The translations under genes were made by a program, and so were the position numbers. Of a stretch of DNA of 64,000 nt, positions 32,716-60,506 are shown piece after piece. The notes under the pieces are model-generated. The model searched no databases, had not been told where the DNA came from, and saw only the letters and a list, made by a program, of their open reading frames with translations. This DNA is from Flavobacterium johnsoniae. GTDB lineage: Bacteria > Bacteroidota > Bacteroidia > Flavobacteriales > Flavobacteriaceae. Positions within the stretch are counted from its first letter, which is position 1; each line of letters begins with the position of its first letter. Location of the stretch: NCBI RefSeq assembly GCF_030388325.1, contig NZ_CP103794.1, positions 558,001-622,000 on the forward strand, read 5' to 3'.

Positions 32716-34176
32716 ATGCTAAAGCAATTTTTAAATTTAAAATTATCCCAAAAATTATCTCCACAGCAAATTCAGCTGATGAAGTTAATTCAATTGCCTA
32801 CGCAAGCTTTTGAACAGCGTTTATTAGAAGAAATGAACGAAAATCCAGCTTTGGAAGCTGGTAAAGAAGACGATTACGAAGCTGATGAATATGCAAATGA
32901 AGACTACGACGATTATGATGATGCAGAATCAGACAGAATCGAAGCAGACGACATTAACATTGACGAATATCTAAGCGACGACGATACGCCTGATTATAAA
33001 ACTCAGGTAAACAATTACAGTGATGACGAGGAACGCGAAACACCTTTTGCGGCTCCGATAAGTTTCCATCAGGATTTAATCAATCAGCTGAATACTTTTA
33101 TTTTGAATGATGAAGAACGCGAAATCGCTGAATTCCTTGTTGGAAGTATTGATGATATGGGTTATATCCGCAGAAGCATTCCAGATATTGTTGACGACAT
33201 GGCTTTTACTCAGGGAATTTATACTGATGAAGCAATGGTCGAAAAAATGATGACGGTAATTCACGAATTAGAACCTTCGGGAGTTGGAGCGCGTGATTTA
33301 CAGGAATGTTTGTTATTGCAATTAAAGCACAAAACCCCAACCGAATACGTTGATTTAGCGATTGATATTATCGAAAATCAGTTTGATGCTTTTACAAAGA
33401 AACATTACGATAAACTTTTACAGAAATACAGCGTTTCGAACGAACAGCTTAAAAAAGCAATTCACGAAATAGAAAGATTAAACCCAAAACCGGGCGGATC
33501 TTTTACAGGAAATAATAAAGTTACAGAAAATGTTGTTCCAGATTTTGCAATCAGAATTGTTGATGGCGAACTTGAATTAACATTAAACGGACGTAACGCT
33601 CCTTCCCTGCACGTTTCTAAAGATTATCAGGAAATGATGCAAACGTATAAAGAATCTCGTGATAAATCGACTGCTCAAAAAGATGCAGTTCAGTTTATCA
33701 AACAAAAACTGGATTCTGCTAAATGGTTTATCGATGCAATCAGACAACGTCAAGAAACGCTTTTTGTAACGATGAACGCGATAATGCATTATCAGGAAGA
33801 ATATTTCTTGGATGGCGACGAAACCAAACTAAAACCAATGATCTTAAAAGACATTGCAGATATGGTTGGTTTGGATATTTCGACAATTTCGCGTGTTGCA
33901 AACAGCAAATATGTTGAAACGCCATACGGAACCAAACTAATTAAAGAGTTTTTCTCTGAAGCCATGAAAAATGATCAAGGTGAAGATGTTTCGACTTTAG
34001 AAATCAAAAAAATTCTTCAAAATACAATTGAAGAAGAAGACAAGAGAAAACCACTTCCAGACGATCAATTGGCAGAAATCTTAAAAGAAAAAGGTTATCC
34101 AATTGCGAGAAGAACTATCGCAAAATATCGTGAACAACTAGATATTCCTGTTGCGAGAATGAGAAAGAAAATCTAG
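32716..34176 (+). CDS. rpoN: RNA polymerase sigma-54 factor
   Basis: A 486-aa sigma-54. Region I is Gln/Leu-rich (LNLKLSQKLSPQQIQLMKLIQLPTQAF), region II is strongly acidic (residues about 50-95, many Asp), and the core-binding and DNA-binding parts follow. The RpoN box reads ARRTIAKYREQLDIP near the C-terminus. It directs transcription from -24/-12 promoters with NtrC-type activators, one of which is at 55772-57130 in this window. The leader consists of GTTTCAAG repeats. A repeat copy and three hairpins follow. Confidence 0.97.
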   Translation: MLKQFLNLKLSQKLSPQQIQLMKLIQLPTQAFEQRLLEEMNENPALEAGKEDDYEADEYANEDYDDYDDAESDRIEADDINIDEYLSDDDTPDYKTQVNNYSDDEERETPFAAPISFHQDLINQLNTFILNDEEREIAEFLVGSIDDMGYIRRSIPDIVDDMAFTQGIYTDEAMVEKMMTVIHELEPSGVGARDLQECLLLQLKHKTPTEYVDLAIDIIENQFDAFTKKHYDKLLQKYSVSNEQLKKAIHEIERLNPKPGGSFTGNNKVTENVVPDFAIRIVDGELELTLNGRNAPSLHVSKDYQEMMQTYKESRDKSTAQKDAVQFIKQKLDSAKWFIDAIRQRQETLFVTMNAIMHYQEEYFLDGDETKLKPMILKDIADMVGLDISTISRVANSKYVETPYGTKLIKEFFSEAMKNDQGEDVSTLEIKKILQNTIEEEDKRKPLPDDQLAEILKEKGYPIARRTIAKYREQLDIPVARMRKKI

Positions 34177-51056: not shown

Positions 51057-52958
51057 ATGAAAAAAGTATTATTAACAACCTTAATAATGATGAGTTTAAG
51101 CGCTATCGGACAGAATGTAATGTCGCCAGAATTGTTATGGAAATTAGGAAGAGTAACACCTCTTGGCATTTCTAAAGATGCAAAAAATGTGGTTTTTAAA
51201 GTTTCTACGCCTTCTGTAGAAGAAAATAAATCGTCTTCAAAATTGTATACGATTCCTGTAACTGGAGGAAATGCAGTTGAAATTAAAGACACAAAAGATA
51301 TTTTGGCAGACAAAAATATTTCTCCTGACGGAAAATATGTTGTTTATAATGAAGAAGTAAAAATCGATAAAGTTTTAGGTAAAGATTTTTATCCAAACTT
51401 AACAAAATCTGACGCTCAAATCTACGACGGATTAGATTATCGTCATTGGGATACTTGGAACGAAGGAAAATTTAACCATGTTTTTTATAAAGAAAACAAA
51501 GATGGCGCAAAAGGAATTGACATCTTGAAAGGTGAAACTTTCGATTCTCCGCAAAAACCATTTGGCGGCGACGAAGATTATATCTGGTCGCCAGACAGCA
51601 AAAGTATTTTTTATGTTTGCAAGAAAAAAGCAGGAACGGCTTACGCAATTTCTACAAATACTGATATTTACGAGTACAATTTAGAAACTCAAAAAACAGT
51701 TAATAAAACCGACGGTAATTTAGGTTACGATACGGCTCCGCAATTTTCTTCGACAGGAAATTTAACTTGGTTGCAAATGAAACGCGATGGTTATGAGTCT
51801 GATAAAAACGATATTATTGTTGAATTTAAAGGTATCAAAACAAATCTGACTGCAAACTGGGACGGAACTGTAGATAATTTTATCTGGAGCAAAGACGGAA
51901 AAACAGTATTTTTTGTAGCGCCAATTGACGGAACAAAACAAATCTTCTCTGTTAATTTTCCAGGTTTAACTAAAATCGCGATCAACGTTAACCAAATAAC
52001 AAAAGGAGATTTTGATGTTAATGATTTAGTTGGATTTTCTGGAGATGATCTTATCGTAACAAGAAACGATATGAATCACGCTGCTGAAATTTATAGTTTT
52101 AATTTGAAGAAAAACACTTGGAAACAGCTTTCTAACGTAAATACAGAAACTTACAAATCTTTAGCGTTAAGCAAAACAGAAAGACGTTATGTTACAACAA
52201 CCGACGGTAAAAAAATGTTGGTTTGGGTAATTTTACCTCCAAATTTTGATGCTTCAAAAAAATATCCAACATTATTATATTGCCAAGGCGGGCCGCAAAG
52301 TGCATTGACACAATCGTATTCTTACCGTTGGAATTTCTCTTTAATGGCTGCAAAAGGTTATGTAGTTGTTGCACCAAACCGCCGCGGAATGCCAGGTCAC
52401 GGTGTTGAATGGAATGAACAAATTAGTAAAGATTGGGGCGGACAAGTTATGGATGATTACCTTTCTGCAATTGATGATGTTGCAAAAGAAAGCTACGTTG
52501 ATAAATCTCGTTTAGGTTGCGTTGGTGCAAGTTATGGAGGATATTCGGTATTTTATTTAGCTGGAATTCACAAAAACCGTTTCAAAACTTTTATTGCTCA
52601 CGATGGTGTTTTCAATACCGTTTCTATGTTAGGAACAACAGAAGAAGTTTTCTTTAACAACTGGGATTTTGGTGGCGCTTATTGGGAAAAAGATAATGCT
52701 GTAGCACAAAAAGCTTACACGACTTTTAACCCTGCAACTTTGGTTCAGAATTGGAACAGACCAATTTTGATTTTCCAAGGCGGAAAAGATTACCGTGTTC
52801 CAATCGGACAAGGACAAGAAGCTTTTCAAGCAGCTCAATTAAGAGGAATCAAAAGTAGATTTGTGTATTTTCCAGATGAAAATCATTGGGTTTTAAAACC
52901 GCAAAATGCTCAAGTTTGGCAAGGCGAATTTTTTAAATGGCTAAGCGAAACTTTATAA
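51057..52958 (+). CDS. S9-family (prolyl oligopeptidase/DPP-like) secreted peptidase
   Basis: A protein of about 633 aa from MKKVLLTTLIMMSL with a signal peptide ending in IGQ. Residues about 25-370 form a beta-propeller (repeated KDGKTVFFV-type blades). The C-terminal alpha/beta-hydrolase has Ser492 in GASYGGYSVFY, Asp in GGKDYRVP and His in DENHWVL. It would cut short peptides, often after Pro or Ala, in the periplasm. An alternative start two codons upstream (51051) makes little difference. It is monocistronic, with a terminator at 52977-53015. Confidence 0.92.
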   Translation: MKKVLLTTLIMMSLSAIGQNVMSPELLWKLGRVTPLGISKDAKNVVFKVSTPSVEENKSSSKLYTIPVTGGNAVEIKDTKDILADKNISPDGKYVVYNEEVKIDKVLGKDFYPNLTKSDAQIYDGLDYRHWDTWNEGKFNHVFYKENKDGAKGIDILKGETFDSPQKPFGGDEDYIWSPDSKSIFYVCKKKAGTAYAISTNTDIYEYNLETQKTVNKTDGNLGYDTAPQFSSTGNLTWLQMKRDGYESDKNDIIVEFKGIKTNLTANWDGTVDNFIWSKDGKTVFFVAPIDGTKQIFSVNFPGLTKIAINVNQITKGDFDVNDLVGFSGDDLIVTRNDMNHAAEIYSFNLKKNTWKQLSNVNTETYKSLALSKTERRYVTTTDGKKMLVWVILPPNFDASKKYPTLLYCQGGPQSALTQSYSYRWNFSLMAAKGYVVVAPNRRGMPGHGVEWNEQISKDWGGQVMDDYLSAIDDVAKESYVDKSRLGCVGASYGGYSVFYLAGIHKNRFKTFIAHDGVFNTVSMLGTTEEVFFNNWDFGGAYWEKDNAVAQKAYTTFNPATLVQNWNRPILIFQGGKDYRVPIGQGQEAFQAAQLRGIKSRFVYFPDENHWVLKPQNAQVWQGEFFKWLSETL

Positions 52959-52976
52959 TCATTAAAAAATTATAAA

Positions 52977-53015
52977 AAAACAGCCGTAGATTTTACATAA
53001 TCTACAGCTGTTTTT
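52977..53015 (+). terminator. Terminator of the S9 peptidase
   Basis: AAAACAGCCGTAGATT pairs with AATCTACAGCTGTTTT (one mismatch), followed by a T-run. Confidence 0.8.
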
Positions 53016-53101
53016 GTTTTCAAACATGACAATTATATAACAGATTCGAAAGGTTTAGGTTTCCGAAAACAGATTTTTTTAGATAAATTGCAATGTTTTA
53101 A

Positions 53102-53117
53102 TCCCGAAGCTTCGGGA
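53102..53117. repeat. TCCCGAAGCTTCGGGA palindrome
   Basis: Perfect 16-bp palindrome, 28 nt before the hybrid kinase ATG. Relatives at 17150, 24288 and 39768. Confidence 0.7.
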
Positions 53118-53145
53118 CCAAATTTCCCAAATCCTTCAATAAAAT

Positions 53146-55578
53146 ATGGAGACTAAAAAAAGTTACACCGCAATAAAAGTTTTATTCAGCTATGTTGCAT
53201 TATTAGCTTTGGTTGTCACCGTTGGATGGTTTCTGTATTCTGAAAATGTTGTTTACAATAAACTAGAAGACAAAATTGCTTTAGAAAAAACCAAAATACT
53301 ACGAGTAAGCAGACTTTACTCAAATGTTTATAAAACGGAAAGTCTAGCAAGACAAACCATTCAAAATAACTCTCAAAAAGATTTCAAAAACTATTTGATC
53401 GAAACAGATTCGCTTCGCAAACGAATCGATACTTTAAAACAAATTGTTACAACAGAATATCAAAAAACACTTTTAGATAGTGTAACTTATTTTTTGGCTG
53501 AAAAAACCGAAAACATCAAGCAATTAAGAGAAATTAAAAACAAAGCAGATGACGAAACTTCTGTAAATAATGCCATTGATGAAATTACCAAAATGGAGTT
53601 CAATTTGAGAAAATTGGAACTTCAGGATTTCACCAAAAACCCAAATCAATTAGGGAGTTATCAGCGAAACGTTTTACAGCGTTATGTTGATTATATGAAT
53701 TCTAATATTCCAGACGACAGCACAAATACTTTAAGCAAAAAAGCTTCAGATTCGATTTTAGCGAATTCTAAAAAGCTTTTAAGTTCTGTAAAATTAAAAG
53801 CGGAGAAGAAAAAAGAATCTTTAAATTTTGAAGAAAATAAATTGCTTCAGAACGAAATTGCCATTTCAGATCAGCTTAGAAAAATACTTCGAATTATTGA
53901 ACGAGAAATCATCATCAACTCCATAAAGAGCAATACATTAAAAGAAAAATCATTAAAAAGAGTCAATGAAATTGTAACGGCTTCGGCAGTAATTGGTTTA
54001 TTATTGACTTTATTTTTCTCTATTTTAATTGTAAGCGATTATTCGAAATCTCAAGTTTATAAAAAGCAATTGGAGATCGCTAATTTCAAAACCAAAAACC
54101 TGCTCAAAAGCCGCGAACAATTAATTTCGACAGTTAGTCACGACTTAAAAACGCCTTTAAGCACCATTGTCGGTTATTCTGAACTTCTTGGAAATTCAGA
54201 CATTAACACCAAACAATCTTATTTCGTTAAAAACATTAAAAATTCTTCTGAGTATATTTCTCAGTTAGTTCAAGATTTGCTGGATTTTTCAAAAATAGAA
54301 GCAGGAAAAATTACAATAGAAAAAGTTCCGTTTTTACTTCCGGAAATTATTGAAGATATTGCTAGAAATATTCAAACCGTTTACAAGCATAAAAACATCG
54401 ATTTAATTATCAATATTGATGAGAAATTTCAAAAACGTATTGTTGGCGATCCATTTAGATTGAAACAGATTCTGACTAATATTATCGGAAATGCCTATAA
54501 ATTTACAGAAGAAGGATATATTAGAATTGCCGCTTTCGCGAATGATGAGCAGTCTTTTACCATTACAATTCAAGATACAGGAATCGGAATCGAGAAAGAA
54601 AACCAGAAATTAGTCTTTGAAGAATTTGCTCAAGCGAATGAAAACATTGAAAAAAAATATGGCGGAACTGGTTTAGGATTATCAATTTGCCAGAAAATAA
54701 TTTCTATTTTGGGAGGTAAATTAAACCTTGAAAGTGTTTTTGGAAAAGGAAGCACTTTTAAAATCCAATTGCCTCTAATATTTGATAATAGCCAGAATAA
54801 TCCCGCTGCTCCATCAAAACCTAAAACTGCAAAGAATACTAAAAAACAAACTTTTATTGTGGTTGATGATGATATTAATCTTTTAAATCTGACTTGCGGC
54901 GTTTTAAGACAAGAACAACATCAAGTTCTTTCTTTCAGCAATCCTGAAAAGGCTTTAGAAGCCATTCAGAATACACCTTTTGATTTTGTTATTACGGATA
55001 TTCAAATGCCAGGAATTGACGGATTTGAGTTATTGGAAAAACTTCGTGAGCTTCCTATTTTTAAAAATCAGCCTGTAATTGCTTTAACCGGAAGAACAGA
55101 TTTGGACCTTTCTGTTTACAAAGATGCTGGTTTTACTACGGTTGTAAAAAAACCTTATTCGCCAAAGATTTTATTGGAAACGATTCAGCATATTTTAGAT
55201 CACGAAGAAATTCCTGAAACTGAAACTACTGAGGTTCAAAACCATAATTCTTCGCAAATGTATTCTCTAGAAACCTTAAATGATTTTCTGGGGAAAGACG
55301 AATCTGCTTTGAAAGAAGTTTTAAATTCTTTTATAGAAACAAGTATCGAGAATTTAGCTTCTTTAAAAACCGCAGTTAACGAAGAAAATCATGAAGAAAT
55401 AAAATCAATCGCACATAGAATTGCGCCAATGTTCAGACAAATTCAAGCCAATGAAATTGGAGAACTCCTTAAAGATTTGGAAAAAGAAGATCTCAACAAA
55501 ATTGATATAAAAAGTACATTTGCTGATTTGAAAAGTAAAATAGAAACGTTATTCGAAAATTTAAAACAGGAAATTTAA
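53146..55578 (+). CDS. Hybrid sensor histidine kinase with receiver and HPt domains
   Basis: An 810-aa membrane kinase. TM1 (about 10-30) and TM2 (about 278-300) bound a helical extracytoplasmic sensor of about 245 residues with no family I can name. The HisKA has His332 in STVSHDLKTPLSTIVGYSELL. The HATPase domain contains NIIGNAYKFTEEG, DTGIGIEKENQ and GGTGLGLSICQKI. A receiver domain carries Asp618 (VITDIQMPGIDGFELLE, KKPYSP). A C-terminal HPt domain has His757 (IAHRIAPMFRQI). The phosphorelay therefore ends at an HPt, and the natural next acceptor is the NtrC-type regulator convergent with it at 55772-57130. Confidence 0.93.
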   Translation: METKKSYTAIKVLFSYVALLALVVTVGWFLYSENVVYNKLEDKIALEKTKILRVSRLYSNVYKTESLARQTIQNNSQKDFKNYLIETDSLRKRIDTLKQIVTTEYQKTLLDSVTYFLAEKTENIKQLREIKNKADDETSVNNAIDEITKMEFNLRKLELQDFTKNPNQLGSYQRNVLQRYVDYMNSNIPDDSTNTLSKKASDSILANSKKLLSSVKLKAEKKKESLNFEENKLLQNEIAISDQLRKILRIIEREIIINSIKSNTLKEKSLKRVNEIVTASAVIGLLLTLFFSILIVSDYSKSQVYKKQLEIANFKTKNLLKSREQLISTVSHDLKTPLSTIVGYSELLGNSDINTKQSYFVKNIKNSSEYISQLVQDLLDFSKIEAGKITIEKVPFLLPEIIEDIARNIQTVYKHKNIDLIINIDEKFQKRIVGDPFRLKQILTNIIGNAYKFTEEGYIRIAAFANDEQSFTITIQDTGIGIEKENQKLVFEEFAQANENIEKKYGGTGLGLSICQKIISILGGKLNLESVFGKGSTFKIQLPLIFDNSQNNPAAPSKPKTAKNTKKQTFIVVDDDINLLNLTCGVLRQEQHQVLSFSNPEKALEAIQNTPFDFVITDIQMPGIDGFELLEKLRELPIFKNQPVIALTGRTDLDLSVYKDAGFTTVVKKPYSPKILLETIQHILDHEEIPETETTEVQNHNSSQMYSLETLNDFLGKDESALKEVLNSFIETSIENLASLKTAVNEENHEEIKSIAHRIAPMFRQIQANEIGELLKDLEKEDLNKIDIKSTFADLKSKIETLFENLKQEI

Positions 55579-55629
55579 ATAGAAAAAAGGCTTCATAAAA
55601 GTTGCAATCTTTAATAGATAAAAAAAAGT

Positions 55630-55684
55630 TCCAGAGGATCGGTATACATAAATTGCAAAAAAAACATGTCGCTCCTCTGGAGCT
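55630..55684. repeat. TCCAGAGGA inverted repeat in the gap between kinase and regulator
   Basis: AGTTCCAGAGGA (55630) and TCCTCTGGAGCT (about 55673) can form a stem spanning a 30-nt AT-rich centre. The 193-nt gap (55579-55771) has no gene. The stem may be a convergent terminator or a dispersed element. Confidence 0.5.
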
Positions 55685-55771
55685 TTCTATTGCATACAAA
55701 ACCTCTTTTTCTATAAATATTTTGCTTCTCCGAAGCTTACAGAAAGAAACTTTTTCTTTTTAGACGCACCT

Positions 55772-57130
55772 TTATTCTAATTCAATATTGTAATGCTTCA
55801 ATTTGTTGTAAAGTGTTTTTCTTGTAATTTTTAAAAGTTTAGCCGCTTCAGATTTATTATTTTTTGCTTTTGATAAGGCATGAATAATCGCTTCTTTTTC
55901 GTTATCAGACAAAGCAAAACTTTCGTCTGCACTTGAATCGTTTTTTTGAATTTGAAAAAATTCTGCAGGAAGCACTTCACTTTCTATAAAATCACCGCGA
56001 GTTAAAAGTGTGGCACGTTTTACACAATTTTGCAATTCGCGTAAATTTCCTGGCCAATTGTAATTTTGAAAAATAGAAACCACTTCTGGAGAAAATCCGA
56101 TAACATCTTTGTTTAATTGCTGATTGGCTTTTTCAAGAAAATAATCTGCAAAAAGCATTAAATCTTCATCACGATCTTTTAAAGATGGAGATTCAATAGA
56201 GAATTCGTTGATTCTATGGTATAAATCTTCTCTAAAATCGCCGTTTTTTACTGCTTCACGCAAATCTTCGTTTGTAGCTGTAATAATGCGTATATCGACG
56301 TTTATTTCTTTATTACTCCCAACAGGTTTAATTTTTCTTTCTTGAAGCGCTCTCAACAACTGAATTTGATTTTCGTACGAAAGGTTGCCGATTTCATCCA
56401 AAAATATAGTTCCGCCATTCGCAGCTTCAAAATAACCCATTTTATCACTGATTGCTCCAGTAAAAGATCCTTTCAAATGTCCGAAAAACTCGCTTGCCGC
56501 TAATTCTTTCGGAATCGCTCCGCAATCAACCGCAATAAAATTATTGTTTTTTCTTTGGCTTTGCTGATGAATGCTTTTGGCAATTATTTCTTTTCCAGTT
56601 CCGCTTTCACCAATAATTAAAACTGACATATCAGTCGGACTAACCAATTGAATATGATCTAAAAGTTTTTTTGAAGCAACAGAAATTCCTTTTACAAATT
56701 CATTTTCTGTAGAAGTTTGTTTTTTCGACGCTTTTTTTTCTTTAGCAGGAGCTTGTTCCTCTTCTTCTTTTGGAGCTTGCAGCGCATTATTAATTACAAG
56801 TAAAACCTCATCAGGATTGAAAGGTTTAGAAATATAATCTGCTGCACCATTTTTAATTGCTTTAACGGCAGTATTTACATCAGAGTAACCTGTCATTAAA
56901 ATAATTGGAATATGCGGGTGAGAATTCTTAAATTCAGACATTAATCCAATACCGTCAAAATCAGGCAAACGAAGATCTGTCAAAATCAAATCAAACGATT
57001 CTTTTTTGATTGCTTCGCGTGCTTCTGCGGCTGAGAAAGCAATGGTTACATCGTACGATTTCTTGATTAGAAATTTTTCTAATAGTTTACAAAACGCGAT
57101 GTCGTCTTCTATCAATAATATCTTCGGCAT
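55772..57130 (-). CDS. Sigma-54-dependent response regulator (NtrC/ZraR type)
   Basis: A 452-aa activator with three domains. The receiver has Asp52 (LILTDLRLPDFDGIGL). The central AAA+ domain has Walker A GESGTGKE, the sigma-54 contact loop GSFTGA and Walker B GGTIFLDEIG. The C-terminus is a Fis-type helix-turn-helix (NKSEAAKLLKITRKTLYNKL). It oligomerises on phosphorylation and opens sigma-54 complexes. It sits between the hybrid kinase gene and the PepSY-like array, reading in the same direction as the array but separated from it by a terminator (57198-57228). The UAS-like half-sites at 59011-59063 are candidate binding sites. Confidence 0.96.
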   Translation of the reverse strand: MPKILLIEDDIAFCKLLEKFLIKKSYDVTIAFSAAEAREAIKKESFDLILTDLRLPDFDGIGLMSEFKNSHPHIPIILMTGYSDVNTAVKAIKNGAADYISKPFNPDEVLLVINNALQAPKEEEEQAPAKEKKASKKQTSTENEFVKGISVASKKLLDHIQLVSPTDMSVLIIGESGTGKEIIAKSIHQQSQRKNNNFIAVDCGAIPKELAASEFFGHLKGSFTGAISDKMGYFEAANGGTIFLDEIGNLSYENQIQLLRALQERKIKPVGSNKEINVDIRIITATNEDLREAVKNGDFREDLYHRINEFSIESPSLKDRDEDLMLFADYFLEKANQQLNKDVIGFSPEVVSIFQNYNWPGNLRELQNCVKRATLLTRGDFIESEVLPAEFFQIQKNDSSADESFALSDNEKEAIIHALSKAKNNKSEAAKLLKITRKTLYNKLKHYNIELE

Positions 57131-57197
57131 TTGCTTTTAGGGAGTTTTTTGCTAAAATAAGACTATTAAAATTGGATTTTCACAAAATTATGCAAAA

Positions 57198-57228
57198 AAA
57201 AAGAGATTGCACGTCGCAATCTCTTTTT
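57198..57228. terminator. Terminator closing the PepSY-like array
   Basis: AAAAAGAGATTGC, loop, GCAATCTCTTTTT, with A- and T-runs on both strands. Confidence 0.85.
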
Positions 57229-57258
57229 CACCAAAAACATAAATCTAAATTCACCTAA

Positions 57259-57555
57259 TTATATTTTCAACCAGTTACCATTGACATCTGAGTATACAGT
57301 AGCCTTTTGGTCTCCAACTGATATTTCTAGTTTGTATTCTTTTTTTTCGTTTACAAATGCCTTTTCCAGTTTTGCACCTGGATAAGCCGTCTGCAAAGCC
57401 GTTTTAACAGCTGCAGGCACAGCATCTGCAGTAACTTCTGTATATTCTGTTTGAACAATTACAGTTGCTTTTGTGTCTTTAGAAACAGGCAATACATTTG
57501 CTTGAATTGACATTGTTCCGAAAAGAACTACTGCTGATAAGATTAACTTTTTCAT
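57259..57555 (-). CDS. Small secreted PepSY-like protein, copy 5 of the array
   Basis: A 98-aa protein with a signal peptide (MKKLILSAVVLFGTMSIQA), then the shared core TEVTADAVPAAVKTALQTAYPG, KLEKAFVNEKKEYKLEISVG and a terminal YSDVNGNWLKI. The fold resembles PepSY-like domains (putative beta-lactamase-inhibitor-like, PF11396), known as small periplasmic proteins of unclear role. The last of five tandem genes and the most diverged, with copies 3 and 4. Gaps between members are 15-75 nt, consistent with one operon. Confidence 0.85.
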   Translation of the reverse strand: MKKLILSAVVLFGTMSIQANVLPVSKDTKATVIVQTEYTEVTADAVPAAVKTALQTAYPGAKLEKAFVNEKKEYKLEISVGDQKATVYSDVNGNWLKI

Positions 57556-57570
57556 GATGCTGATTTTTAA

Positions 57571-57864
57571 TTATTTTTTGATGATGTTACCAGAAGCATC
57601 TGTAAAAATAGTATACTTCTTTTCTCCACTTGAAATCTCAAGTTTATACTCGTTTTTCTCGTTTTTATAAGCCTTTTCAAGCTTAGTATTCGGGAAAGAT
57701 TTTTCAATTGTAGACTTCACTGCTGCCGGAACAGCATCTGCAGTTACTTCGGTAAATCCATCTTGAATAAGTACTGATTGAGTGATCGAAATCGCTGGAA
57801 GAACTGCGGCATTAACCGATAAACTTCCTAACACAATCGCCGCTGATAAAACTAACTTTTTCAT
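57571..57864 (-). CDS. Small secreted PepSY-like protein, copy 4
   Basis: A 97-aa protein with a signal peptide (MKKLVLSAAIVLGSLSVNA), core FTEVTADAVPAAVKSTIEKSFPN, KLEKAYKNEKNEYKLEISSG and ending TDASGNIIKK. It shares VTADAVPAAVK with copy 5 and KxEYKLEIS with the family. It starts 15 nt upstream of copy 5 and follows copy 3 by 17 nt. No Cys, so no disulfides or heme attachment. Confidence 0.85.
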   Translation of the reverse strand: MKKLVLSAAIVLGSLSVNAAVLPAISITQSVLIQDGFTEVTADAVPAAVKSTIEKSFPNTKLEKAYKNEKNEYKLEISSGEKKYTIFTDASGNIIKK

Positions 57865-57881
57865 AATATTGTGGTTTAAAA

Positions 57882-58172
57882 TTATTTTTTAAGAATGTTA
57901 CCAGAAGCATCGGTATAAACGATCGATTTTTCACCTCGAACGGTTATCTCAATTTTATACTCCTTTTTGTCATTCACCCATGCTTTTTCAAGCACTACAC
58001 CAGGATAAGCGTCGTCTAAGCCTTTTTTAACAGCTGCTGGAACTCCGTCTACTTCTTTATATCCATCCTGATCATTTACTGTCTGCACCATTGTGTTGGC
58101 TACAGCAGTGGTTTCTGCGTGCATCGACAAACTGCCTAAAACAATTGCTGCCGATAGAATCAACTTTTTCAT
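57882..58172 (-). CDS. Small secreted PepSY-like protein, copy 3
   Basis: A 96-aa protein with a signal peptide (MKKLILSAAIVLGSLSMHA), core YKEVDGVPAAVKKGLDDAYPG, VLEKAWVNDKKEYKIEITVRG and ending TDASGNILKK. It is shortened by two residues before the VPAAV helix. It otherwise follows the family pattern of one helix and a strand pair. It lies 28 nt from copy 2. Confidence 0.85.
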   Translation of the reverse strand: MKKLILSAAIVLGSLSMHAETTAVANTMVQTVNDQDGYKEVDGVPAAVKKGLDDAYPGVVLEKAWVNDKKEYKIEITVRGEKSIVYTDASGNILKK

Positions 58173-58200
58173 AGTAATAGTTTTAAGGGTTAGTATTTAA

Positions 58201-58497
58201 TTATTTTTTAATCCAAGTTCCATCTGCGTTAGCAAATAGATTTCCTGTTTTATCTCCAACAGTTACTTCAAGCTTGTATTCAGACTTTGTATTTTTAAAT
58301 GCTTTTGTTAAAACTGCATCTGGATACGCTTTTTTAAGCGCGTCTGTTACGGCTGCTGGAAGTTCTTCTAATTTAATCTCTGTATAATCATCTTGGATAG
58401 AGATTGTTTTTACGATAGTATTTGAAATTGGCGAAGTTGAAGCAAATGATGTTAAACCTCCCAAAACGATTGCGGCTGATAAAAATAAATTTTTCAT
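58201..58497 (-). CDS. Small secreted PepSY-like protein, copy 2
   Basis: A 98-aa protein with a signal peptide (MKNLFLSAAIVLGGLTSFAS), then YTEIKLEELPAAVTDALKKA, VLTKAFKNTKSEYKLEVTVG and FANADGTWIKK. By my count 81 of 98 residues match copy 1, so the two are a recent duplication. Gap to copy 1 is 74 nt, the longest in the array, without a visible terminator. Confidence 0.87.
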   Translation of the reverse strand: MKNLFLSAAIVLGGLTSFASTSPISNTIVKTISIQDDYTEIKLEELPAAVTDALKKAYPDAVLTKAFKNTKSEYKLEVTVGDKTGNLFANADGTWIKK

Positions 58498-58571
58498 GAT
58501 AATTCTGTTTTAATATTGTTAATTTGATCTTAGTATTCTTGATCTGGATTTTCAAAATCTATAAGATTAGA

Positions 58572-58868
58572 TTATTTTTTAATCCAAGTTCCGTCTGCAT
58601 TAGCGAAAAGATTTCCAACTTTGTCACCTACTGTAACATCAAGTTTATACTCAGATTTTTCGTTTTTATATGCTTTAGTAATTACAGCTTCTGGATATGC
58701 TTTTTTCAAAGATTCAGTAATTGCTGCTGGTAATTCTTCTAATTTGATTTCAGTGTATTCGTCTTCAACAGAAATCGTTTTTACGATTGTATTATTTACT
58801 TGTGTAGTTGAAGCGAATGAAGTTAAACTTCCTAAGACAATTGCGGCTGATAAAAATAAATTTTTCAT
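58572..58868 (-). CDS. Small secreted PepSY-like protein, copy 1 (first in the array)
   Basis: A 98-aa protein with a signal peptide (MKNLFLSAAIVLGSLTSFAS), core YTEIKLEELPAAITESLKKA, VITKAYKNEKSEYKLDVTVG and FANADGTWIKK. The first gene after the regulatory region that carries the -24-like element and the four AAGTGTKTA half-sites, so its promoter probably drives the whole array. It is expected to be periplasmic or secreted, with an unknown binding partner. Confidence 0.87.
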   Translation of the reverse strand: MKNLFLSAAIVLGSLTSFASTTQVNNTIVKTISVEDEYTEIKLEELPAAITESLKKAYPEAVITKAYKNEKSEYKLDVTVGDKVGNLFANADGTWIKK

Positions 58869-58933
58869 AACGTATATATTTAAATTAATAGTTGTTTACG
58901 CTTTAGGTAATGAAATTATTATGCCGTAAAAGA

Positions 58934-58950
58934 AAAGAACTGTGCCAAAC
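58934..58950 (-). promoter_or_regulatory. Sigma-54 promoter candidate of the PepSY-like array
   Basis: On the minus strand: TTGGCACA-GTTC-TTTTC. The -24 part matches TTGGCAC exactly. The -12 part lacks the GC of TTGCW, so the match is partial. It is about 65 nt upstream of the first gene. An alternative is a primary-sigma promoter, but no exact TAnnTTTG is nearby. Confidence 0.45.
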
Positions 58951-59010
58951 CCGTTAAAGCCTTATTTTTAAAGGGTTTCTTTAAATATGCCAAAAAACAG
59001 CCAATATTAA

Positions 59011-59063
59011 AAAGTGTGTAAATGAAGAAAAAAGTGTGTAATAAGTAAACACTTAAAGTGTTA
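59011..59063. promoter_or_regulatory. UAS-like cluster of AAGTGTKTA half-sites
   Basis: AAAGTGTGTA at 59011-59020 and again at 59031-59040, 20 bp apart (two helical turns). Then a perfect palindrome AACACTT-A-AAGTGTT (59048-59062) adds one forward and one inverted half-site. The cluster lies about 65-115 bp upstream of the -24 element, the normal position for enhancer sites of NtrC-type activators. The regulator at 55772 is the obvious candidate. No such repeat was seen elsewhere in the window. Confidence 0.6.
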
Positions 59064-59130
59064 CCTTAGAAAAATTTCAAGTATCAAGTTGAATCTAAAG
59101 AACGTATTCAAAACTTATATAAAGAAAAAA

Positions 59131-59152
59131 GGCTGTCAAAAAATTGACAGCC
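59131..59152 (-). terminator. accC terminator
   Basis: GGCTGTCAA, loop, TTGACAGCC, then TTTTTTC on the minus strand. Confidence 0.85.
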
Positions 59153-59159
59153 TTTATAA

Positions 59160-60506
59160 TTATTCTGGATTATTCATTTTAAATGTATCCATAAATGCAG
59201 TTGTATAATCTCCTGCAATATATTTTGGATCATCCATTAATTGTCTGTGGAAAGGAATTGTAGTTTTCACACCTTCAATTACGAATTCATCAAGAGCTCT
59301 TCGCATTTTGCTGATAGCTTCTTCACGAGATTGTGCAGTTGTAATTAACTTAGCAATCATAGAATCGTAGTTTGGCGGAATGCTATATCCTGAATACACG
59401 TGAGTATCTAAACGAACTCCGTGTCCTCCTGGCATATGAAGCGTAGTAATTTTTCCTGGTGAAGGTCTGAAATCATTATAAGGATCTTCAGCATTAATAC
59501 GACATTCGATAGCATGTAATTCAGGAAGATAGTTTTTACCAGAAATCGGAATTCCAGCAGCAACCATAATTTGCTCACGAATTAAATCATAATCAATAAC
59601 TTGTTCTGTGATTGGGTGCTCTACTTGAATACGAGTATTCATTTCCATGAAATAGAAGTTTCTGTGTTTGTCAACCAAAAACTCTACAGTTCCAGCTCCT
59701 TCATATTTAATGAACTCAGCAGCTTTTACAGCAGCCTCACCCATTCTAGCACGAAGTTCATCTGTCATAAACGGAGAAGGAGTTTCTTCCGTTAATTTTT
59801 GGTGACGACGTTGTACAGAACAATCTCTTTCAGAAAGGTGACAAGCTTTACCATAAGCATCACCAACAACCTGAATTTCGATATGACGTGGCTCTTCAAT
59901 AAGTTTCTCCATGTACATTCCGTCATTTCCAAATGCTGCAGCAGCTTCTTGACGTGCGCTTTCCCAAGCTTTTAAAAGCTCTTCTTCCTTCCAGATAGCA
60001 CGCATTCCTTTTCCACCACCACCAGCTGTAGCTTTCATCATAACTGGATAACCAATTTCTTTAGCTGTTTTTTGTGCATGTTCGTAAGATTCTAATAATC
60101 CGTCTGAACCTGGTACACAAGGTACTCCTGCCGCTTTCATTGTAGCTTTTGCAGAAGCTTTATCTCCCATTCGGTCGATCATTTCAGGAGCCGCACCAAT
60201 AAATTTGATTCCGTGCTCTTGACAAATTTTTGAGAATTTAGCATTCTCAGAAAGAAATCCATAACCTGGATGAATTGCATCTGCATTTGTAATTTCTGCA
60301 GCTGCAATAATATTTGACATTTTCAAATACGATAAGTTACTCGGAGGAGGACCAATACAAACCGCTTCGTCAGCAAATTTAACGTGTAAACTTTCTGCGT
60401 CGGCTGTAGAGTAAACTGCAACAGTTTTGATTCCCATTTCCTTACATGTACGAATTACACGTAGTGCAATTTCTCCTCTATTCGCAATTAATATTTTTTT
60501 AAACAT
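59160..60506 (-). CDS. accC: Acetyl-CoA carboxylase, biotin carboxylase subunit
   Basis: A 448-aa ATP-grasp enzyme that carboxylates the biotin on AccB with ATP and bicarbonate, the first step of fatty-acid synthesis. Landmarks: [20 protein letters not shown] start, [13 protein letters not shown] glycine loop, [16 protein letters not shown], and [16 protein letters not shown]. It follows accB (105 nt) and fabH on the same strand and is ended by the hairpin at 59131. The gap to accB has ATTAGATAATT and TCTAAAATC simple repeats. Confidence 0.97.

Follow-up and report, generated by a model that had tools for sequence, protein, structure and literature searches.

In the Flavobacterium johnsoniae genome (5.32 Mb, single contig) the 64-kb stretch C1:558001-622000, here called the window, carries a hybrid sensor histidine kinase, a sigma-54-dependent response regulator and a tandem array of five genes for small exported PepSY-like proteins. 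The locus is probably explained by a sigma-54 phosphorelay module with both a protein and an RNA output. Comparison among relatives establishes the linkage of the three parts, the array promoter with its upstream half-sites, and, where the predicted array transcript ends, a conserved RNA element. This element, at positions 57193-57268 of the window, went unnoticed in the initial annotation, whose view of the output is therefore probably incomplete. The features of the locus are as follows (aa, amino acids; E, E-value).

53146..55578, plus strand: hybrid sensor kinase, 810 aa; Pfam domains HisKA, HATPase_c, Response_reg and Hpt, all above cut-offs
55772..57130, minus strand: sigma-54-dependent response regulator; Pfam REC, Sigma54_activat and HTH_8, with a Fis-type helix-turn-helix (HTH)
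57193..57268, minus strand: conserved RNA element with terminator hairpin at about 57197-57229; match to covariance model R2 at E 2.6e-6
57259..57555, minus strand: array gene 5, exported PepSY-like protein, 98 aa; below the PF11396 cut-off
57571..57864, minus strand: array gene 4, exported PepSY-like protein, 97 aa; above the PF11396 cut-off
57882..58172, minus strand: array gene 3, exported PepSY-like protein, 96 aa; no PF11396 match
58201..58497, minus strand: array gene 2, exported PepSY-like protein, 98 aa; below the PF11396 cut-off
58572..58868, minus strand: array gene 1, exported PepSY-like protein, 98 aa; below the PF11396 cut-off; fold model made
58912..58925, minus strand: conserved -24/-12 type promoter GGCATAATAATTTC (GG-N10-TC), in 72/79 upstream regions
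59013..59065, minus strand: enhancer-like half-site cluster, palindrome AACACTTTAAGTGTT (59048-59062) and two TTACACACT copies, in conserved pairs
32716..34176, plus strand: rpoN (sigma-54), open reading frame about 20 kb from the array; PF04552, E 2.2e-51, at C1:591691-592170

Linkage of the array, the regulator and the kinase

The five open reading frames (ORFs) of the array (57259-58868) are followed on the same strand by the regulator, toward which the kinase is convergent. The parts are those of the initial annotation, but they do not form one operon in reading order, since the plus-strand kinase runs against the array and the regulator, both encoded on the minus strand. Pfam confirms the HisKA, receiver and HPt domains claimed for the hybrid kinase, and the regulator has the receiver aspartate, the GAFTGA-type loop, the AAA+ domain and the Fis HTH of an NtrC-type sigma-54 regulator. 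The phosphorelay residues are found where they had been predicted, with His332 in HisKA, Asp618 in the receiver and His757 in HPt of the kinase, and Asp52 and the GSFTGA loop in the regulator. The regulator scores below the NCBIfam equivalog cut-offs for ZraR, AtoC and NtrC, the best match being the ZraR model (404.6 bits against a cut-off of 760). The N-terminal 310 residues of the kinase were modelled as all-helical, with a predicted local distance difference test (pLDDT) of 80 and a predicted template modelling score (pTM) of 0.54; according to this model the kinase has a large helical periplasmic sensor domain. A fold search with this domain returned solely very weak matches to helical bundles, namely McpS (E 0.007) and TorS (E 0.19).

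A search of genome contigs with an alignment of the array gave at least 106 relatives, from which 79 distinct loci were retained (the named loci; by title 77 Flavobacterium, one '[Flexibacter] sp. ATCC 35103' and one 'Flavobacteriaceae bacterium CRH'). The initial annotation had proposed a survey of whether the three parts stay together, and in all 79 named loci the array (one to seven copies), the regulator and the convergent kinase adjoin. The relay residues are invariant in 79/79 of these loci and in the 16/16 kinases and 24/24 regulators aligned from further relatives, and Asp52 and GSFTGA are kept in 103/103 aligned regulators. Most named loci also share their flanks, with accC upstream in 76/79 and an S9 peptidase downstream in 75/79, so that synteny alone could explain the trio among them.

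Wider sampling takes the trio out of this neighbourhood. The regulator is found at E 1e-120 or better in 59 of 121 genomes of the genus, in one copy each. Where its identity is 73-100% the array is also present (41/41 genomes), and at 54-60% identity regulator and kinase are accompanied by a diverged array gene in five of eighteen loci, whose neighbourhoods differ. Order-wide, 26 of 246 genomes have an array match at E 1e-8, seven of them outside the genus. Four of the seven are trios: L270-L272 (three genomes; two further genera of the family) lie in yet another neighbourhood, and L274, from another family, is a more remote trio that does not carry the promoter pattern. L275 and L276 are cut off by the contig edge, and L273 is a more distant single array-like homolog with no regulator in the stretch seen. 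Because the trio is kept in other neighbourhoods and genera, its link appears to be functional and more than inherited synteny. Four of the 50 array-positive genomes, without a regulator (G070, G079, G087, G103), were set aside as partial matches to frames of 143-188 aa which are not of the array type. One of these, G070, has a 179-aa PepSY_like gene after a small response regulator and a kinase (L235:1846-4396).

The array promoter and its half-sites

In an alignment of 78 upstream regions conservation peaks in a block from about -57 to -37, counted from the start codon of the first array gene. Of 79 sequences (the window and 78 loci; L083 is left out, its upstream sequence being unavailable), 72 have the pattern GGYAYN5TTTC above the array, compared with a mean of 0.11 and a maximum of 1 in shuffles. 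Control regions do not have it: regulator 0/79, kinase 0/79, peptidase 0/75, accC 0/76. It also lies 46-64 nt above the start in 5/5 diverged regulator-linked arrays. The conservation of GG-N10-TC makes 58912-58925 a probable sigma-54-type promoter of the array, and the product of rpoN, a family matched in 116 of the 121 genus genomes, would be the factor that it needs. A sigma-54-like promoter had been annotated initially, and this conserved site is its probable place. The most consensus-looking candidate, TGGCAC...TTTTC at -79 (about 58932-58947), is poorly conserved and was rejected; the TGGCAY-type pattern occurs in 13 of 80 upstream sequences, nine at the -79 place and four nearer the gene.

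The half-site cluster noted at first upstream of the array is real and conserved. Half-sites of the TGTNTA/TANACA type lie 90-140 bp above the promoter, with inverted or direct pairs in 68/79 upstream regions (shuffle mean 1.84) and both kinds of pair in 43/79 (shuffle 0.06). By eye, L270 and L271 of another genus have the same half-sites and spacing, GTGTGTA-N5-TACACAC.

Array genes far from any kinase-regulator pair, which the initial annotation had named as the case against its proposal, exist in a limited form: there are seven unlinked paralogs, in four genomes which also have a linked array, in addition to L273 with no regulator in the stretch seen. The same promoter and half-sites are found at three of them (L229, L231, L232), and L279, from a near relative, adds a fourth case with the promoter. 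The other four (L228, L230, L233, L234) are single array-like paralogs without the sigma-54-type promoter pattern, beside genes which we take to be of msr type.

Five whole genomes were scanned with TGTGGAATTCCACA, allowing one mismatch. In G033 it matched two places, exactly the linked and the unlinked array promoter; in G134 it matched the array promoter and a place inside a coding frame, the latter rejected as a promoter; in the remaining three genomes there was no match. With the reversed pattern as control, one genome gave a single match on each strand, and G033 gave none.

Candidates for a wider regulon in the window's own genome were rejected. Two enhancer-like scans stayed below their reversed-pattern controls (50 against 69; 49/50 against 54/65). 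Another scan exceeded its control (23/22 against 14/9), and in the 30 of its 45 listed sites that were inspected the half-site cluster was found at the array site alone. When 15 and 20 enhancer-like sites were checked for GGYAYN5TTTC/TTGC within 250 nt, the array was joined by L116 alone, where the promoter-like site is antisense inside a coding frame. The one other exact GGYAYAATWATTTC in this genome (C1:448832) is likewise antisense within a coding frame. A generic TTGGYAYN5TTKCA scan gave 6 matches against 5 in its control and is thus uninformative.

An RNA element between the array and the regulator

Between the last array gene and the regulator is found a leader (TTAGGTGAATTTAG...GGTGAAAA) and then a terminator hairpin (z -3.58), a canonical hairpin with a T run. 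Over 56 close relatives the identity of the 36-nt leader to the window has a mean of 0.873 and a median of 0.946, the lowest value being 0.389; the comparison values are 0.769 for the promoter, 0.604 for the first array-gene gap, and 0.551 both for the kinase-peptidase gap and for the spacer above the promoter. AGGTRR is present in the array-regulator gap of 66 of 80 sequences. In a diverged group of relatives AGTAAGGTGA, a first hairpin and the terminator hairpin are found at the same place, and in eight of thirteen loci with a regulator and no array an element lies before the regulator without any array ORF (L163, L164, L165, L167, L168, L169, L170, L172; the element-only loci). Three of these eight (L167, L168, L169) have the exact GGYAYN5TTTC upstream of the element.

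Two covariance models were used, R2 built from six elements of the diverged group, none of them from the window group, and R1 from six element-only loci. On the 64-kb window R2 finds the element at E 2.6e-6, with the next match at 0.99. Among the 79 named loci, 61 have a single R2 match at E 0.1 or better, and each of these matches is in the array-regulator gap. Among the relatives it finds L172 (3e-4) and L164 (9e-4), and more weakly L165, L168, L169 and L170 (0.05-0.2). R1 finds six diverged-group elements at E 3e-5 to 0.015. Neither model has a match at E up to 1 in L173-L177; around the regulator relatives L173, L174, L175 and L177 neither kinase nor array nor RNA element was seen. Rfam models at E up to 1 gave two weak matches in 52900-59300 of the window, neither at the element, and at the gathering score they found in eleven relative loci rRNA, tRNA and Flavo-1 elsewhere and none at the element. 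Two Flavo-1 RNAs (RF01705), distinct from the element, lie near the regulator, at L167:7982-8062 (+) and L164:10665-10743 (-).

A tree of 39 regulator rows, with partial support and long branches flagged, clusters the window group with L171, L176, L277 and L270-L272 and places the diverged group near the element-only loci. By this grouping two groups have both RNA and array; the RNA without the array is found in part of the diverged group and in the element-only group. A box of sigma-A -7 type (TAnnTTTG) precedes the regulator in 7/7 sequences of the diverged group, 6/6 of the element-only group and 28/79 named loci, which fits separate units for array and RNA on the one hand and the regulator on the other.

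A small peptide encoded in the element was considered and rejected by eye, since the lengths of the A run and the T run vary among relatives and break the frame; in L163 and L167 there is no plausible ORF between promoter and terminator. In L160-L172 the element contains AAGGTGA before the regulator, a sequence resembling a Shine-Dalgarno sequence. Such sequences are said in PMC9723704 to be lacking in this bacterial group. The AAGGTGA of the relatives may be a pairing seed.

We infer a small-RNA function for the element: its presence in relatives without the protein genes suggests a second, RNA-based output, and the element most likely gives rise to a small RNA. The strongest competing explanation, to which we give somewhat less than an even chance, keeps the same sigma-54 control of the array and takes the element merely as a strong terminator and stability element of the mRNA end, without any trans-acting RNA. 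It is consistent with the canonical hairpin and T run, with the poor pairing of the first stem in the window group, and with the weak matches of R2 to the end of the unlinked paralog L228 (0.0075) and to an unrelated place in L232 (0.0068). However, the eight element-only relatives have the element below a promoter-like region, nothing else in the window matches R2 below E 0.9, and the leader, though mostly unpaired, exceeds in conservation every other noncoding stretch measured, the promoter among them.

A number of observations count against a second, RNA-based output. R1 gives no match to the window element at E 1 or better, and neither R1 nor R2 finds the element in L171, L277 and L270-L272. 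The motif AGTAAGGTGA is present in 0/80 window-type array-regulator gaps, and its four occurrences in the named loci are all elsewhere. The exact AGTAAGGTGA scan (window, L160-L177, L270-L279) gave 15 matches, twelve before the regulator and three elsewhere, but the relatives' elements were gathered by this same scan after the motif had been spotted by eye, so that its exactness in those twelve is partly by construction; L161 has a degenerate AGTAAGGTGA. In L163-L165, L170 and L172, the other five element-only loci, the promoter shows by eye a -24 half but a degenerate -12 half. Covariation over 18 rows speaks for the element, at 0.631 against 0.282 in shuffles, none of which reached 0.631, but it is mostly located in the terminator helix, as any terminator would show. 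Helix 1 is paired at 76% in the same 18-row alignment, which was fitted to the structure and includes one reverse-strand match, from L160. RNAalifold on twelve diverged and element-only sequences predicts the terminator helix alone.

Array proteins, proposed mechanism and known systems

The five tandem genes for proteins of 96-98 aa belong to one family, as first annotated, the other four being 39-83% identical to the first. Their PepSY-like label is supported by fold and profile, while only one of the five, at 57571-57864, passes the family model itself: against a Pfam gathering score of 28.3 bits for PF11396 (PepSY_like), one protein scores above (30.3), three below (23.9, 17.4, 15.6) and one is unmatched. 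A profile of 25 array proteins matches the solved structures 3u1w (E 7.3e-7), 3due (3.4e-6) and 3db7 (1.5e-4). The predicted fold of array gene 1 has one helix followed by four strands (mean pLDDT 72, with blocks at about 83-88 in residues 41-98; pTM 0.50). Its eight top matches in the PDB, weak at E 0.01-0.28, are to seven entries, all periplasmic proteins of Bacteroides or Parabacteroides, named DUF2874 (3due, 4k61, 4ipb), BLIP-like (4fr9), putative periplasmic (4hbr) or calcium-binding or calcium-regulated (3u1w, 3db7). The fold assignment is based on the 3u1w profile match together with these matches of the model. According to the model, each array protein is a single PepSY-like unit behind a signal peptide, the signal peptides being read by eye. 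The best-matched solved relatives are longer, with 126-250 residues and up to several units. Against Pfam and NCBIfam the array proteins match PepSY_like or nothing relevant, and no ZraP-like identity is found; a phage-family scan of two of them gave a single weak match (E 0.0071), of unknown function.

The array genes are under purifying selection, with a ratio of nonsynonymous to synonymous divergence (dN/dS) of 0-0.24 in 15 comparisons (five genes, three relatives). Against all three of these relatives they also have a smaller dS (0.12-0.51) than regulator and kinase (0.51-1.07), a pattern seen in highly expressed genes and perhaps a sign of high expression here.

Most likely the array proteins have a binding or inhibitory role in the periplasm, and they possibly also damp the kinase. 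A stronger form of the latter idea, in which they are mainly CpxP-like negative-feedback partners of the kinase and not effectors, is rather unlikely in our view. In its favour, copy number varies from one to seven, yet the genes stay linked to the kinase, which has the large predicted helical sensor in the periplasm with its very weak McpS and TorS matches. CpxP itself serves both as feedback inhibitor and as effector (PMC4817254). Against such a role, kinase and regulator occur without the array in L163, L164, L167, L170 and L176, and some array paralogs are unlinked.

In the proposed phosphorelay module a periplasmic signal would act on the helical sensor of the kinase, and phosphate would pass from His332 to Asp618, to His757 and on to Asp52 of the regulator. 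The active regulator would then bind the half-sites 90-140 bp upstream of GGCATAATAATTTC, and sigma-54 polymerase would transcribe the array. After the genes for the five small exported one-unit proteins the transcript would run into the conserved RNA element and stop at that element's own terminator; a separate start, further downstream, would serve the regulator gene. This extends the initial interpretation of a relay that switches on the array, which the linkage, the promoter and the invariant relay residues support and which missed the RNA end of the transcript. A further step, which we put forward tentatively and would not yet back over its opposite, is that the small RNA is the constant output, PepSY-like genes (0-7 copies) having been inserted into or lost from the same sigma-54 unit. 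If true, the module would be a switch whose RNA part is conserved and whose protein part is free to evolve.

On the other side of the balance, the array is absent in 13 of the 59 regulator-bearing genomes, and five of these 13 have neither array nor RNA element. The exact promoter pattern is missing in 7/79 upstream regions; six of these have near variants, and the seventh, L064, is truncated by a contig edge within the array. The -12 half of a textbook sigma-54 promoter is TTGC, and here it is TTTC, the G of the -12 GC being replaced by T. The motif scans of the window's own genome show no wider regulon, and most of the sequences come from one genus and hence are not independent. That the trio are neighbours by descent, with the array under a housekeeping promoter and the kinase-regulator pair acting on other genes, would fit the common accC (76/79) and peptidase (75/79) neighbours and the regulator targets left without independent definition by the regulon scans, but is very improbable, given that the trio persists in different neighbourhoods and genera and that the promoter pattern is conserved upstream of the array only, not of regulator, kinase, peptidase or accC, and recurs on some unlinked paralogs.

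How Bacteroidota regulate their genes and keep the envelope in balance is poorly mapped, and for Flavobacterium the locus offers concrete pieces to work with: a sensor and its activator, a promoter with an enhancer motif, a set of proteins and a candidate RNA. In Flavobacterium psychrophilum sigma-54 (motif SM4) controls protein quality control, envelope-stress genes, gliding and exported unknown proteins, and its regulon includes one putative RNA, Rfp36; a PepSY array or a kinase-regulator-RNA module is not described for this regulon in the part of the paper available (PMC9723704). The literature searched, with subscription papers and preprints outside its scope, gave no link between sigma-54 and PepSY in Flavobacterium, and the sole match to 'PepSY-like' with Flavobacterium concerns another subject, as far as its title and the start of its abstract tell.

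The proteins of PF11396/DUF2874 (for example BVU2987, BT0923, BDI_1975) resemble the array proteins in fold and profile and are exported; unlike the matched solved relatives of 126-250 residues, the array proteins consist of one unit. An inhibitory role has been proposed for DUF2874 proteins, none of which had been biochemically characterised as of 2010, according to PMC2954215. The array also gives a handle on the function of this type of protein. In Porphyromonas gingivalis the DUF2874 lipoprotein gene PG0717 is close to the two-component pair HaeSR, as the array here is close to its pair; HaeSR, however, is a classical kinase and response regulator, and the text of PMC3764172 mentions neither 'sigma54' nor 'PepSY'.

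Three better-known systems share parts of the design. ZraSR-ZraP of the Enterobacteria is a two-component pair whose sigma-54-dependent regulator switches on a small periplasmic protein, and here too a sigma-54 pair lies beside genes for small exported proteins; it differs in that the present kinase is a hybrid with HPt, the proteins are tandem and PepSY-like, and a 3' RNA element is conserved. In LuxO-Qrr of Vibrio an HPt phosphorelay leads to a sigma-54 response regulator which drives small RNAs. The likeness, with the RNA output here a candidate, is one of design; in LuxO-Qrr the HPt is a separate protein and no small periplasmic proteins are known to take part, whereas here the HPt is within the kinase. 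In the CpxAR system of E. coli the strongest target encodes the small periplasmic protein CpxP, and the 3' untranslated region of its mRNA yields the small RNA CpxQ (PMC4817254). The array transcript would likewise join small periplasmic proteins to an RNA at its 3' end, whose production is here predicted only. CpxR is not known to be a sigma-54 activator, in distinction to the regulator of the present locus. If the RNA part is true, the coupling by a two-component system of a small periplasmic protein to a 3'-end RNA arose separately from CpxP/CpxQ, with sigma-54 in the place of a CpxR-type activator.

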